37,476 bases of DNA, from contig JAAXHO010000053.1 in NCBI GenBank assembly GCA_012270795.1, forward strand, positions 1 to 37,476. The letters are read 5' to 3'. The position numbers were made by a program, and so were the translations under genes. The notes under the pieces were generated by a model, which did not search any database, was not told the origin of the DNA, and saw only the letters and a program-made list of their open reading frames with translations. The DNA comes from Candidatus Poribacteria bacterium (GTDB lineage: Bacteria; Poribacteria; WGA-4E; WGA-3G). Shown in pieces: positions 7,372-13,741 of this stretch. Every line of letters starts with the position of its first letter. The stretch's first letter is position 1.

Positions 7372-8394
7372 TTGAGACGTAATACGTTTTACTTTATCAT
7401 TCTTATTTTTGCATTGTTTATATCTTTCACAGATATTGCAAGGGCACGTCCCGATTGCCACGCGCCGATTGGTGTTATGGGTGAACATGGGCATAAAGCA
7501 GGTGAAATGATGCTTGCTTATCGGTTCATGGTAATGGGTATGCAAGGGTTGCAATCTGGGACAGATTCCGTAGAAACTGCGGATGTACTAAAAGATTTTA
7601 TGATGGCACCAACTGCTATGGACATGAGAATGCACATGTTCGGTGCCATGTTCGCCCCGCATGACAAGATCACGCTCATGGGGATGGTAAGTTATCAACA
7701 ACGCTATATGGAGATGGAGGGTGCACACCTGCACGCAACAGGACACCACGATCATCCCGTAGGCATGCACGAAATGTCAAGTGCTGGCATCGGTGATGTC
7801 AAACTGGACTCGCTTTTGACGTTCTGGAAAAGCCATAACGTCACGTTTCTCGGTAACGTTGGTGTATCGTTTCCTACAGGATCCATTACACAGCAGGCAG
7901 ACGACGGTAGCATTCTTCCTTATCCGATGCAACTGGGAAGTGGTTCATTTGAAGCACGTCCTGGCATAACGGTTTTCGGAACGCACGGCAATTGGTCTTA
8001 TGGTGGTCAGTTGCGCGGGACATTTCCGTTGAATACCAATGCCAGCGAATATCAGCACGGTAACACGCTCACTGCCACAACCTGGGGCGCGCGGCGTGTA
8101 AACAATTGGATCAGTCTCAGCGCGAGGTTACTATTTTCGCATAAGGGAAATATAACAGGAAATCACCCAGATTTGGATCTAAATAGGAGTCCAAGCCACC
8201 GTCCTGATTTTCAAGGTTTCAATAGACTTGATGTTGCGATTTCAAGTAATTTGATAGTCCCGGAAGGCGCACTAGTGGGGCAGCGTCTTGCTATTGAGTT
8301 CATGTTGCCTGTTTATCAGAACCTCACTAGAACGCAGCTTAAAAATACATGGAGACTCACACTCGGTTGGCAATACGCTTTCCGGCTGCTCTAA
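7372..8394 (+). CDS. His/Met-rich predicted outer-membrane beta-barrel protein
   Basis: The 340-residue protein uses a TTG start with AAGGAG six bases upstream. A signal peptide (NTFYFIILIFALFISFTDIARA) is followed by a mature region beginning RPDCHAPIGVMGEHGHKAGE. It is rich in His and Met (MAYRFMVMGMQG-like stretches, MDMRMHMFGAM, HLHATGHHDHPVGMHEM) and then shows alternating strands typical of a barrel (FLGNVGVSFPTGS, GNWSYGGQLRGTFPL, WRLTLGWQYAFRLL) ending in an aromatic/Leu C-terminus. I know this type as conserved putative transporters often near copper-handling genes. The metal role is inference. A truncated gene is unlikely, since both ends look intact. Confidence 0.7.
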   Translation: MRRNTFYFIILIFALFISFTDIARARPDCHAPIGVMGEHGHKAGEMMLAYRFMVMGMQGLQSGTDSVETADVLKDFMMAPTAMDMRMHMFGAMFAPHDKITLMGMVSYQQRYMEMEGAHLHATGHHDHPVGMHEMSSAGIGDVKLDSLLTFWKSHNVTFLGNVGVSFPTGSITQQADDGSILPYPMQLGSGSFEARPGITVFGTHGNWSYGGQLRGTFPLNTNASEYQHGNTLTATTWGARRVNNWISLSARLLFSHKGNITGNHPDLDLNRSPSHRPDFQGFNRLDVAISSNLIVPEGALVGQRLAIEFMLPVYQNLTRTQLKNTWRLTLGWQYAFRLL

Positions 8395-8396
8395 AA

Positions 8397-11018
8397 ATGA
8401 AAAAGCAATTGGAGCTGACACTCCGAAACCCTGGCGGGAAGACGATCATTATCGTACCACATCCTCGTGTGGATAGAATTCTTGATGTGCTAAAGTTTTT
8501 TCGTATTATTATTTTTCGTATTATTAAAAGGACTTTCTTTAGAGGAATACTATGGATTCTGCCCAGATTGCTTGCCAGAAATTTTCAACCGATGAACACT
8601 TATAAAAAAGGAACGTTGGGAACTCGGATGCAATTACCTGTTTATCTTCGAAAAACCCTGATGGGCATACTCCTCATCAGTGTCTTATTCCTTGCTTTCT
8701 GGATTCGGATTCAGGGTGTGGAGCGGATACCTGAGGGGCAGTTTACCGGGCATGACCCCTATGTCTTCTATTGGCAGGCACTCACTATTTCGGAGAAAGG
8801 ATACCTGCCTGCCCGCGATATGCATCGATGGCTTCCTCTTGGTAGAGATAATGGACAGGTGCTTCAGCTCTTTTCTTATGCCATTGCTTATGCCCATAAA
8901 GTGGTTGGTTGGATTTCTCCAAACCTCACACTTTATCACATTCAACTCTATGCCTCTCCTATCTGTTTTACGTTCGGACTTGGTGTGTTAATGTTTTTTC
9001 TTATGCAGGCCTATGGTGTGTTCTTCGCCGCCACTGTCGGTATACTCCTTGCGACGCTGCCCGGAAGTATTGACCGGAGTGCAGCAGGGTTTGGTGATAG
9101 GGATGCGTGGTGTTGGATGATGGCAGTAGTGGCCGTTACCAGTTACCTATGGAAAGAACAGATGCCCTATGGATGGCGTAGATGGCTCGGAACTGTCCTC
9201 TGCGGCTTTACCGTTTTTTTGGGTGGATTGAGTTGGGAAGGTTTTGGCGTTTTCGTATTAATCATTATTGTTGTAGAATTTTGGAAATTCTGTACGACAG
9301 ATACGGAGACACGTCTTAAAGAATATTTTCTCTGGGTGCTCATGTTCGTTCCCGGGCTTTTACTTTTGAGTCCTGCTTATCGGAGCGGTTATGGTTTTTC
9401 GACGCACGTTGCTGCTCTCATGCTTGCCCCGTCGTTGGTGTTGCTTGTATTGCGCGGGGTAAGATGCTTGCTGCTGACTTACTTTGAGAACCTCCGCCAA
9501 CATGCACGTGAACTTGCTTTAGGATTATCCCTATTTGCTGTTGCTGCTGGTCTCTGTTACTTTTTCTTTCAGAAACACACTTATGAAATGACTGCCTTTG
9601 CATTTCGCAAAAGTCGACTGATGCAAAGTATTGGGGAGTTAGATAGCCCGGATTATCTGTATTGGAAGGTATACTATGGGACAGTCTTTGCTTTGGGTAG
9701 TCTCGGATTGATATTCTGTAGCCGCCGCCTTGGGACACCTACAAGATTTTCCGTTGAAATTCCTCTCATTTTTTTCTTCCTAACCACCTTCCTTCGAGAA
9801 ATTATGAATAACTGGATAGGTGATGTTTGGTGCGATAGGCTCTTTTTCGCTTCACTTGGATTGACATGTTTGGCTTTAGGCCTTGTCTGTCTACGGCACA
9901 CTGCGGAAAAATCAGATAAAAATGAGTTAGTGGTGTTTGCTGCAATTGCATGGTTTTTGTTATGGATTAGTTTAGCTCGGAGTGGAAAACGCCATGACTT
10001 TTTCATAGGCATACCACTTGCTTACGGCACAGCATGGCTTTTATGGGAGTTTACAGCCCCGTTAGTCCAGAAGCTTGTCCAGAAAATCCCCGGTGCCTTC
10101 CTGAGAGTCTGGAATCAATGGGTAGCTGCGAGTGTTGTCCTCATTGCGTTGATAGGTATTCTATTTTGGTCACCCCTTGGCGGACATGCGAGATTTTCAG
10201 TAGCAGCCGCTTCTAAATTACGAGGCCCTGTCCCTGGTGAAGGGGGTTTGAAAGATGCGTATCAGTGGCTCAAAGAAAATACACAAGATGCTGTTGTCAG
10301 CACTATTTGGGATTATGGTATCCAATTAAACATCTTTGGTGGTGTAAAAAATGTGATTGATACCGACCATTATTTACCACATTGGATATATCTTTACTGC
10401 CGACATGTAGTCTGTGCGCAAACTGAACAGGAAGCACTTTCTTTTCTGAAAACGCACGGTGCCACGCACCTATTCCTTACAAGATGGGATACCACATCTC
10501 GTGCTGGAACTCTGTCGTTTATCGGTAGTAACGAAAATGATGATAGAATGTTTAGATTCCATCAACTCAGTCAAGAGGTGGAAAACACTACAGAAACATC
10601 TACGCGATTGATATCACAAGAAACTCCTTTAGATTATATTGATGTTGCAGTTTCAACACCTAATAAGCGCACAGTGACAGCACAGTTTAAAGATGGCACA
10701 GACATATCCCGAGACTTCATATTGATGGAAGACACATCAACCCAAAAAGCAATTGATTTAGAAAATGGGGGGATCCTTCTCTCTTTTGATGCAGACAGAC
10801 AAATTGAAAAAGCTGAATATATTTCACCTATTGGTTGGAATAGTCTCGCTATTCAGTTGTATTTCCGCGGCGGGCATAATGAGGCTTTTATCCCTGTTTA
10901 TCCAGAAGATGCTGACAGTTCTGTCCCGGTCAAAATCTGGGAAATCCACTATCCATCTGACATCAAAACAGATGAGAAATATCTTGCAACCGAACCGGAG
11001 AAACCAGATAAAAAATGA
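8397..11018 (+). CDS. STT3/PglB/AglB-like oligosaccharyltransferase
   Basis: This protein of about 873 residues has a polytopic N-terminal half and a soluble C-terminal domain. Hallmarks of the STT3 catalytic subunit appear in order. They are an acidic luminal motif (FTGHDPYVFYW), a second acidic loop DRDAW (9095-9109) within AGFGDRDAWCW, SIGE (9627-9638) matching the SVSE/TIXE motif, and IWDYG (10308-10319) matching WWDYG with the first Trp replaced by Ile. STT3 enzymes transfer lipid-linked glycans to Asn in acceptor sequons outside the membrane. I use the ATG at 8397, two bases after the upstream stop; starts at 8349 or 8592 are also in frame, and no strong Shine-Dalgarno decides. Glycosyltransferase-like genes follow downstream. 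The family call is firm, but activity is inferred. Confidence 0.82.
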   Translation: MKKQLELTLRNPGGKTIIIVPHPRVDRILDVLKFFRIIIFRIIKRTFFRGILWILPRLLARNFQPMNTYKKGTLGTRMQLPVYLRKTLMGILLISVLFLAFWIRIQGVERIPEGQFTGHDPYVFYWQALTISEKGYLPARDMHRWLPLGRDNGQVLQLFSYAIAYAHKVVGWISPNLTLYHIQLYASPICFTFGLGVLMFFLMQAYGVFFAATVGILLATLPGSIDRSAAGFGDRDAWCWMMAVVAVTSYLWKEQMPYGWRRWLGTVLCGFTVFLGGLSWEGFGVFVLIIIVVEFWKFCTTDTETRLKEYFLWVLMFVPGLLLLSPAYRSGYGFSTHVAALMLAPSLVLLVLRGVRCLLLTYFENLRQHARELALGLSLFAVAAGLCYFFFQKHTYEMTAFAFRKSRLMQSIGELDSPDYLYWKVYYGTVFALGSLGLIFCSRRLGTPTRFSVEIPLIFFFLTTFLREIMNNWIGDVWCDRLFFASLGLTCLALGLVCLRHTAEKSDKNELVVFAAIAWFLLWISLARSGKRHDFFIGIPLAYGTAWLLWEFTAPLVQKLVQKIPGAFLRVWNQWVAASVVLIALIGILFWSPLGGHARFSVAAASKLRGPVPGEGGLKDAYQWLKENTQDAVVSTIWDYGIQLNIFGGVKNVIDTDHYLPHWIYLYCRHVVCAQTEQEALSFLKTHGATHLFLTRWDTTSRAGTLSFIGSNENDDRMFRFHQLSQEVENTTETSTRLISQETPLDYIDVAVSTPNKRTVTAQFKDGTDISRDFILMEDTSTQKAIDLENGGILLSFDADRQIEKAEYISPIGWNSLAIQLYFRGGHNEAFIPVYPEDADSSVPVKIWEIHYPSDIKTDEKYLATEPEKPDKK
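8497..8526 (+). repeat. Perfect 15-bp tandem duplication inside the STT3-like gene
   Basis: Two exact 15-base copies (8497-8511 and 8512-8526) encode a doubled FRII-type segment near the N-terminus. The length is a multiple of three, so the frame is kept. It is AT-rich and may reflect slippage. Confidence 0.85.
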
Positions 11019-11055
11019 ACTTCTCCACCTACCAAAATAAACAAACAGCAACATT

Positions 11056-11541
11056 ATGTCCGTAAAAACTCTTATCATCGGAATTAGCATCATGGGGATT
11101 ATCACTATCATCGGGTGGAATTTATATGAGGATAACAATCAGAATAATCAATCACCGGTAGAGAAAAATAGAGTCATCAATCCGCAACAGAAAGCAAAAC
11201 CATCTCAAAACAAAAATATGGAAGGTAAAACTGATAGCACCCCAGGAACCCCTGAGGCGTTTTATCAGATTATCATTGACAATAACCTTTTTCGTCCATT
11301 GGGGTGGCAACCAGAGGTACCGCAACCGAAATATATGTTGATCGGTACTGTGATCGCAAAAAATACCGCACAACACACAGAAGCATTTATTGTCGAACGG
11401 CAATCAAGACAGCTACATATCGTCCGGGTAAACGATTGGATCGGTGAACAGATGGTAAAAGGGATAGAAGCAAAAAAGGTGATTTTACAAGAGGGTGATC
11501 AAGAGATCATCCTTCAGATAGAACACTCTCCGTTCTTCTAA
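11056..11541 (+). CDS. GspC-like one-pass protein
   Basis: This 161-residue protein has an N-terminal membrane helix (TLIIGISIMGIITIIGWNLY), a Gln/Asn/Lys-rich linker, and a C-terminal domain resembling the homology region of type II secretion GspC or PilP-like proteins: IIIDNNLFRPLGW, then YMLIGTVIA, AFIVERQSRQLHIVRVNDWIGEQMV and a final KVILQEGDQEIILQI. GspC connects inner-membrane secretion components to the secretin. No other type II secretion gene is present, so it may be a stand-alone relative serving the glycosylation locus. It lies 37 bases after the STT3-like gene and 44 before the GT-C gene. No strong Shine-Dalgarno is visible. The fold assignment is by pattern only. Confidence 0.5.
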   Translation: MSVKTLIIGISIMGIITIIGWNLYEDNNQNNQSPVEKNRVINPQQKAKPSQNKNMEGKTDSTPGTPEAFYQIIIDNNLFRPLGWQPEVPQPKYMLIGTVIAKNTAQHTEAFIVERQSRQLHIVRVNDWIGEQMVKGIEAKKVILQEGDQEIILQIEHSPFF

Positions 11542-11585
11542 ATCTCATACTGAAAATAGATTGTTTCCGTAGAGGTAATTGCTAT

Positions 11586-13548
11586 ATGAAGTCAATCCCC
11601 ATTCAGGTGTACCGCACAATAGGTTATCTACTCGGTGGACTCTGTTTTCTGCTGATCGGGTATTGGGTTAAAAATAATCTTTTTATTTTTGATGACAAAC
11701 TGATCATTTCACAACAACAATCTGAGCACTTGTTAATCCCTTTACCGATTTGGTGTGTGAATGTCGTTGCGGGGGTGCTTCTACTCTATACACTTCTTTT
11801 AATACTCCCGAATTTTACAGTGTTGCAACAGCGGCGATTTCAATATACTGTTTTCTGTATTTTGCTTTTTATCTGTGTCCTCCCACTTTACACACACTTG
11901 CACACCGCGCGATTCAATGATGTTCGAGGACGTTCCGATGTATACAGCCTGATTATTTTCCGATGTATACAGCCTGATTATTTATAGTGTTGGGATGGCT
12001 TTGTGTTTGCGCGGATTACTCAGCAGTCCCCCCGCATTCATCCACACAATCGGTTCGCGGATTTTCCAATGGATACACAACATTTCCACGCGGACTTTTC
12101 TCTTATGTACCGCTGCTGGCACCTTGATAATATGCTGTGTCATCTCACACACGCTCTTTGATGGTGCCCCCGGTACTTATGACGGCTGCATGTACATGTT
12201 TCAAGCACGTTTGTTCTCACACGGCATGCTTTCCGCACAAACACCACCCGAACCACAGTTTTTCCAATACCCACTTATTATTCTATCTGATAAATGGTAT
12301 ACACAGTTTCCACCCGGGTTCCCCGGAATCCTCACATTAGGCGTGCTACTGCGGATACCTTGGCTCGTGAATCCACTCCTCGGTGCACTCACAATTGCCG
12401 GAATTTATCTGATTGCTAATGAACTTTATGGGAGAAATACCGCAAAACTTTCTGCACTATTGGCTTGCGCAAGTAGTTTTTTTCTCTTCATGTCCTCAGA
12501 GTTCCTGGCACACACTTCAACCCTCTTTTTTATAACAACAGCGTTTCTGAGTTTCGTGTGGATGGTTAAGAAGAACCGTCCGCTTTTGTCAGCAATGGTC
12601 TGCGGTACAGCTTTAGGGATTGCACTGCTATGCCGTCCTTATACAACAGTCTGGTTCTGTGTCTGTCTCGGAATCGCAGCAATTGTGATGCGGAAACAGT
12701 TATCAATTCAACACATCCTTATCGGTGCAGTTCCTCTTATCGCCGCTGCATTAGCATTCCTTGCATATAACGCCGCAACAACGGGGGACCCACTCCTTTT
12801 CGGTTATATTGCTGCACACGGTAAAAAGCATCTTCCAGGTTTCCACCAAGACCCATGGATGGAACAACCCCATACAATTATACAAGGTGTCAAATACCTA
12901 ATCGGCAACCTGAATGGACTTAACAATTATCTATTTGAGTGGCCAGTCCCATCGCTTTTTTTTGTTGTCCTATATCTTACATTCGGGAAAAAAGAGACGT
13001 GGGACTGGACGCTTGTCGGGTGGATGAGCTCTTTGTTCGTAGGGCACGTTTTCTATTTTTTCAGCGAGTTTCACCTGGGGCCCAGGTTTGTGTATGAAAC
13101 GTTACCCGCAGCCATTCTATTGACAAGTAAAGGGATTGCCACCAGTACACAACTTTTGGCAGCTTGGCAAAAAACACCTTCTTATGCACATGCACGAAGT
13201 GCAATCTGTTTTATACTTAGCGGACTTTTTCTGTTTGCGATGCTTCTCAATATTCCTGCAACCGCAAAATCATACCAAAGCCGACATTATGGGAAAGACG
13301 TGACAATTCACAAATACCTTGAAGAAAACAGTGTAGAAAAAGCTCTCGTTTTTGTGAAAGACGAGCCGACCTTTCGGGTACATTACCCCTTTAACGCACC
13401 TTTTGCCAAACCCCATATCTATGCCAAAGATAGAGAGAAACAGAACATAAAACTCGCGAAAAAGTTCCCTGAATACCGATATTTCATTGCTGATGAAGGA
13501 AACGTTAAAGAAGTTTCTATTGACGAACTCCAACAAGATGAAAAGTAA
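11586..13548 (+). pseudogene. GT-C (ArnT/PMT-like) glycosyltransferase, frameshifted by a 25-bp duplication
   Basis: Two reading frames, 11586-11987 (133 codons) and 11995-13548 (517 codons), together encode one polytopic protein. They are separated by an exact 25-base tandem duplication (11933-11982). Removing one copy restores a single frame of about 645 residues through VYSLIIYSVGMALCLRGLL. The protein shows GT-C features: many membrane helices, a first-loop acidic segment (FDGAPGTYDGCMYMFQARLF), QFPPGFPGILTLGVLL, and a soluble C-terminal tail. GT-C enzymes use polyprenyl-phosphate sugars. The gene lies in the STT3 locus. It may be a pseudogene, a phase-variable ON/OFF state, a split gene, or an assembly error. 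The ATG at 11995 alone would give a protein lacking the first helices. Confidence 0.8.
11933..11982 (+). repeat. Exact 25-bp tandem duplication causing a frameshift
   Basis: Copies at 11933-11957 and 11958-11982 are identical. Since 25 is not a multiple of three, the second copy shifts frame and brings a TAG at 11985-11987. With one copy the surrounding gene reads through. Confidence 0.95.
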
Positions 13549-13574: not shown

Positions 13575-13741
13575 ATGAAAAATAAAAACAGAGATGTCTT
13601 TATTGTCAGGCCGTGCCTCAACGAAGAAGAAACACTCGGCACTTGCATTGAGAAGGCACTACCTTAGACGCATTAGGCATTCAAGGAGAAATGGTTATTG
13701 CCGATAACGGCTTAACAGATAACTCTGTCCACAAAGTATAA
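13575..13741 (+). pseudogene. Truncated, frameshifted GT2 glycosyltransferase remnant
   Basis: The frame from the ATG at 13575 reads DVFIVRPCLNEEETLGTC, the classic start of a family 2 (GT-A) glycosyltransferase of the polyprenyl-phosphate glucose/mannose transferase type. It hits TAG at 13665. The frame one base back continues as LDALGIQGEMVIADNGLTDN with the nucleotide-binding (A/D)DN(G/S) motif, then stops at 13739. Only about 55 of roughly 300 residues remain. Such enzymes make the lipid-linked sugars used by GT-C transferases, so the context with the STT3-like and GT-C genes fits. It appears to be a dead fragment. Confidence 0.75.

Follow-up and report, generated by a model that had tools for sequence, protein, structure and literature searches.

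The window, that is, the whole stretch of DNA analyzed, was the entire contig C167 (37,476 bp) from the 5.18-Mb draft genome (298 contigs) of a Candidatus Poribacteria sponge symbiont. The first-pass annotation had described in it a GT-C glycosyltransferase gene split by an exact 25-bp tandem duplication. The locus was as described, with two perfect copies of the repeat and separate ORFs of 133 aa and 517 aa:

11586-11987, plus strand: ORF1 (133 aa), the N-terminal fragment of the GT-C gene, its last residues out of the original frame
11933-11957, plus strand: first copy of the 25-bp tandem duplication
11958-11982, plus strand: second, identical copy of the 25-bp tandem duplication; the relatives G012 and G004 have a single copy at this site
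11985-11987, plus strand: TAG stop that the frameshift brings into frame; the ORF2 ATG follows after 7 nt
11995-13548, plus strand: ORF2, the GT-C core (517 aa, PMT_2), which holds the conserved Asp equivalent to D191 of the 640-aa relative

The repeated 25-mer, TTCCGATGTATACAGCCTGATTATT, was present in two copies placed head to tail. The periodic match continued one base beyond the copies (26 matching positions at period 25), and a random window with this base composition is expected to hold approximately 1e-11 such runs. Microhomology at the junction was 1 bp only. ORF1, which showed 85-87% amino acid identity to residues 1-126 of the intact relatives, ran into the duplication, and ORF2 lay in a different frame from ORF1, since 25 bp is not divisible by three. 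The duplication fell in codons ~117-125, upstream of the core, where the N-terminal region has additional hydrophobic segments. With one copy removed, the locus measured 1963 - 25 = 1938 nt, or 645 codons plus the stop. This agreed with the approximately 645 residues given in the first-pass annotation, and the intact relatives encode 640, 638, and 647 aa.

The assignment to the GT-C glycosyltransferases, also made at first pass, was supported: ORF2 matched Pfam PMT_2 (PF13231) with 29.7 bits, just above the gathering score of 26.1, and the intact relative scored the same 29.7 bits. Hydropathy indicated many membrane segments and thus a polytopic protein. The Asp that follows segment 158-186 (position 191 in the numbering of the 640-aa relative) was kept in all 29 aligned homologous loci. 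By analogy with GT-C enzymes it is likely the catalytic residue, and the loop that bears it would be extracytoplasmic, judging from the family. ORF2 and its intact homologues therefore share with PMT_2-type GT-C enzymes a Pfam score above cutoff, a polytopic hydropathy profile, and an Asp that follows the first core helix and is invariant; the intact homologues differ from them in that the core is preceded by approximately 150 additional N-terminal residues, which include further hydrophobic segments. An AlphaFold2 model of the 640-aa relative was poor (mean pLDDT 40) and was set aside, and a PDB sequence search for a solved relative returned two insignificant matches only.

Comparison with sister genomes, as suggested in the first-pass annotation, showed a single 25-mer and an unbroken gene in the nearest of them. 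The two closest relatives were both Candidatus Poribacteria MAGs: G012 (SB0662_bin_35) has an uninterrupted 640-aa gene with a single 25-mer that differs by one base, and G004 (PCPOR2a) has an uninterrupted 638-aa gene, again with a single 25-mer. A third relative, L043 (PNGco_C_bin3), has a gene of 647 aa, and the gene was likewise in a single open frame in G006, G016, and G025. No repeat was found at the duplication site in any relative or other homologue compared. Given the single copy and unbroken gene of the nearest relatives, the two-copy state is, on this comparison, derived and specific to the window genome among the genomes compared. An ancestral two-gene arrangement, with the split shared by all relatives and independent of the duplication, was ruled out, the nearest relatives having one ORF.

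The gene was present in 7 of the 18 genomes of the genus, the window genome included; the others showed only a paralogue of approximately 28% identity. Three of these seven genomes held only disrupted copies, and the lesions were of several kinds. In G017, the copy on C101 had a 2-bp deletion near codon 151 and the copy on C177 had a 1-bp deletion near codon 23; a paralogous copy in this genome was split ~25 codons beyond the site of the duplication by a different lesion. In the copy in G005, single bases were deleted at two places, near codons 306 and 421. For comparison, NuoL, which is of equal length, was unbroken in all seven relatives checked. The difference between the two genes (4 of 10 copies broken for the GT-C gene vs. 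0 of 8 for NuoL) was not significant by itself (P ~0.09). These data portray an accessory, dispensable gene lost repeatedly through assorted mutations, for which the frequency of breakage relative to NuoL is suggestive only.

Three of the five indels in the family lay within the initial 24% of the gene, leaving a core ORF open, a distribution that is weakly unlikely by chance (~0.09, hand calculation) and that would suit a functional split, in which ribosomes reinitiate at ATG 11995 to make the ORF2 core, active without N-terminal helices fused to it. Some activity of this kind is possible, and it is a counterpoint to a loss of function: ORF2 retains the PMT_2 match and the invariant Asp, and its ATG lies only 7 nt past the stop. 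Moreover, almost every genome of the genus, including that of the window, encodes distant paralogues of 540-580 aa that naturally have no N-terminal extension and carry the Asp at residue 32-56. ORF2 alone resembles this shorter architecture, and residual function may therefore be possible if it is translated. However, the orthologues and nearer homologues (31-100% identity) all still have the N-terminal part fused to the core, and in these proteins of 638-662 residues the Asp is at position 191-205; a convincing ribosome-binding site was not found before ATG 11995; and the break in G005 sits inside the core. We consider a working split enzyme quite unlikely.

The substitution pattern bears on the age of the break. 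Pairwise dN/dS (NG86) of the ORF2 part was 0.16-0.20 against G012 and G004, close to the value between the intact genes of these two relatives (0.18, NG86), and pairwise dN/dS of the ORF1 part was 0.21-0.31. When changes in ORF2 were polarized, the window branch carried 38.5 synonymous vs. 13.5 nonsynonymous changes, and amino acid changes were not in excess. ORF2 was open across all 517 codons, and its coding signal was undecayed. The pattern shows a gene that, until recently, was apparently constrained in the normal way during most of the period after the split, and the break is taken to be recent because dN/dS was low and amino acid changes were not in excess on the window branch. The two copies themselves give a second estimate. 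With a dS of 0.35 to G012, approximately nine differences between the copies are expected if the duplication is as old as the split, and none was seen. Assuming neutral change in both copies, the duplication would be younger than approximately one-third of the time since the split from G012, which is a loose bound. Thus, the statement at first pass that the duplication is perfect and hence recent stands as to recency, the copies being identical, but its age is bounded only within this wide limit.

Taken together, the locus is probably a young, ordinary loss-of-function allele of a dispensable accessory GT-C (PMT_2-type) glycosyltransferase gene. A single 25-bp tandem duplication, which probably arose by replication slippage, lies in codons ~117-125 of the gene in this symbiont and shifts the frame, and translation would end at the TAG at 11985-11987. 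On this account the allele would be real in the cells and the function lost. The frame would be regained if one copy were deleted exactly, and the allele should thus be revertible in principle. Two features of a young pseudogene were seen here: the orthologue is intact in close relatives and disrupted in the window genome, with little further decay since the disruption. A search of the Poribacteria literature on glycosyltransferases and pseudogenes, limited to titles and abstracts, gave none on this topic. As a single mutation in one draft genome, the allele is of small importance.

Short duplications of this type were common in the genome. Perfect tandem arrays with a unit of at least 14 bp were counted in a 0.92-Mb sample of the window genome and in 0.4 Mb each of G009 and G024. 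The window genome had 25 arrays (~27 per Mb), nearly all two-copy, whose units ranged from 14 to 74 bp. In G009, a one-contig relative, the rate was 25 per Mb, and in G024, a one-contig genome of another genus, it was 2.5 per Mb. Most arrays were outside long ORFs or kept the frame. A perfect 19-bp tandem duplication at G000:C165 15429-15466 (L106) probably splits another gene; the downstream part of this gene had a weak fn3 match, and its relatives, of approximately 530 aa, were uninterrupted in G005 and G001. A weaker, third gene-breaking candidate was located on C163 near 6,435. No frame-breaking array was found in the 0.4 Mb sampled from each of G009 and G024. Short perfect tandem duplication is an ordinary and frequent class of mutation in the window genome, and its frequency should be remembered when split genes are annotated in these genomes.

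The same counts bear on the proposal that the cells carry one copy and that the 25 bp were duplicated by the assembler at a join. The contig comes from a fragmented draft of 298 contigs, and the case on C165 means that another gene of the same genome was probably broken by a perfect duplication, with no such case in 0.4 Mb of each one-contig genome. However, two to three frame-breaking events in 0.92 Mb vs. none in 0.8 Mb are too few to distinguish the genomes, the overall rate equals that of one-contig G009, the window contains no N, and the unit lengths vary widely and show no common overlap length. The spread of unit lengths and the matching one-contig rate make a systematic artefact less likely, and they speak less strongly at a single site. 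An assembly artefact at this locus is unlikely, albeit with an appreciable chance.

Apart from an assembly error, a young loss-of-function allele has also to be weighed against phase variation, in which a 25-bp duplication would arise and be excised at high frequency and turn surface glycosylation OFF and ON. In pneumococcus, spontaneous tandem duplications in cap3A, cap8E/wchA, and tts are reported to have given reversible variants in culture (Waite et al. 2001, 2003, as cited in PMC4022640 and PMC4243769). As those citing articles describe them, the pneumococcal cases resemble ours in that a short, exact, frame-shifting tandem duplication disrupts a glycosyltransferase or capsule gene and precise excision would restore it; the window allele can be likened to the OFF state. 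They differ in that reversible variants were obtained in culture there, whereas the window gives a single consensus sequence of an uncultured organism, and in that the gene family and the organism are unrelated. Phase-variable contingency genes with simple sequence repeats (SSR) also change reading frame with repeat number, but the window case has two 25-mer copies, in one genome only, rather than a short-unit array.

With a conserved contingency locus, relatives are expected to carry a repeat at the corresponding position. No repeat tract of variable copy number was kept at the site among the relatives compared (one copy in G012 and G004, no repeat in the other homologues), and because this feature of maintained repeats was absent, we did not class the case as phase variation. 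Although the gene shows no other decay and would regain its frame on precise excision of one copy, two copies are the minimum, a longer array is absent, and the other broken copies have unrelated indels at other sites. An evolved switch was rejected as unproven, given the relatives without a repeat at the site and the different lesions in the other broken copies. Of the options raised in the first-pass annotation, the ON/OFF switch thus found no positive evidence (one duplication in one genome), and we regard it as very unlikely. The fresh pseudogene was the best supported, by the intact one-copy relatives, the undecayed coding signal, and the independent breaks in other lineages.

A broader conjecture, to which we give barely any credence, is that frames in this Poribacteria glycosyltransferase family are disrupted frequently and in part reversibly, mainly in the N-terminal helices, which would yield mosaic populations with fused, split, or silent enzyme and varied surface glycans within one sponge. 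If one- and two-copy alleles were mixed within a sponge, they would offer an initial lead to variable surface glycans in a symbiont phylum that is uncultured.

Several observations concern the neighborhood of the gene. A Phenol_MetA_deg-like gene (window 7372-8394) adjoins the GT-C module, and its homologues were truncated or in pieces in G005, G017, G004:C118, and G006:C68, so this neighbor often decays as well. Between the Phenol_MetA_deg-like and GT-C genes, an STT3-like ORF and a small 161-aa ORF (11056-11541) were present in the window, G012, and G004; in the window, the pair together with the GT-C gene spans 8349-13548. In G017 and L043 this pair was absent from that place and the GT-C gene followed directly. 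The ORF at 8349-11018 was judged STT3-like by eye and had no significant Pfam match. Its 5′ end (8395-8624) has the appearance of a methyltransferase gene tail: VPHPRVDRILDVLKF is similar to a 192-aa ORF at L055:5279-5857, and the true start of the STT3-like membrane protein is probably further downstream. A perfect 15-bp tandem duplication lies at 8497-8526, inside this methyltransferase-like remnant. On the other side of the GT-C gene, at window 13576-13740, only the 5′ part of a GT2 glycosyltransferase gene is left; this remnant has a small deletion and stops early, and the 3′ part is missing. An intact 253-aa paralogue is present at G000:C168:84576-85337 (L055:4576-5337), with 75% DNA identity over the shared part.
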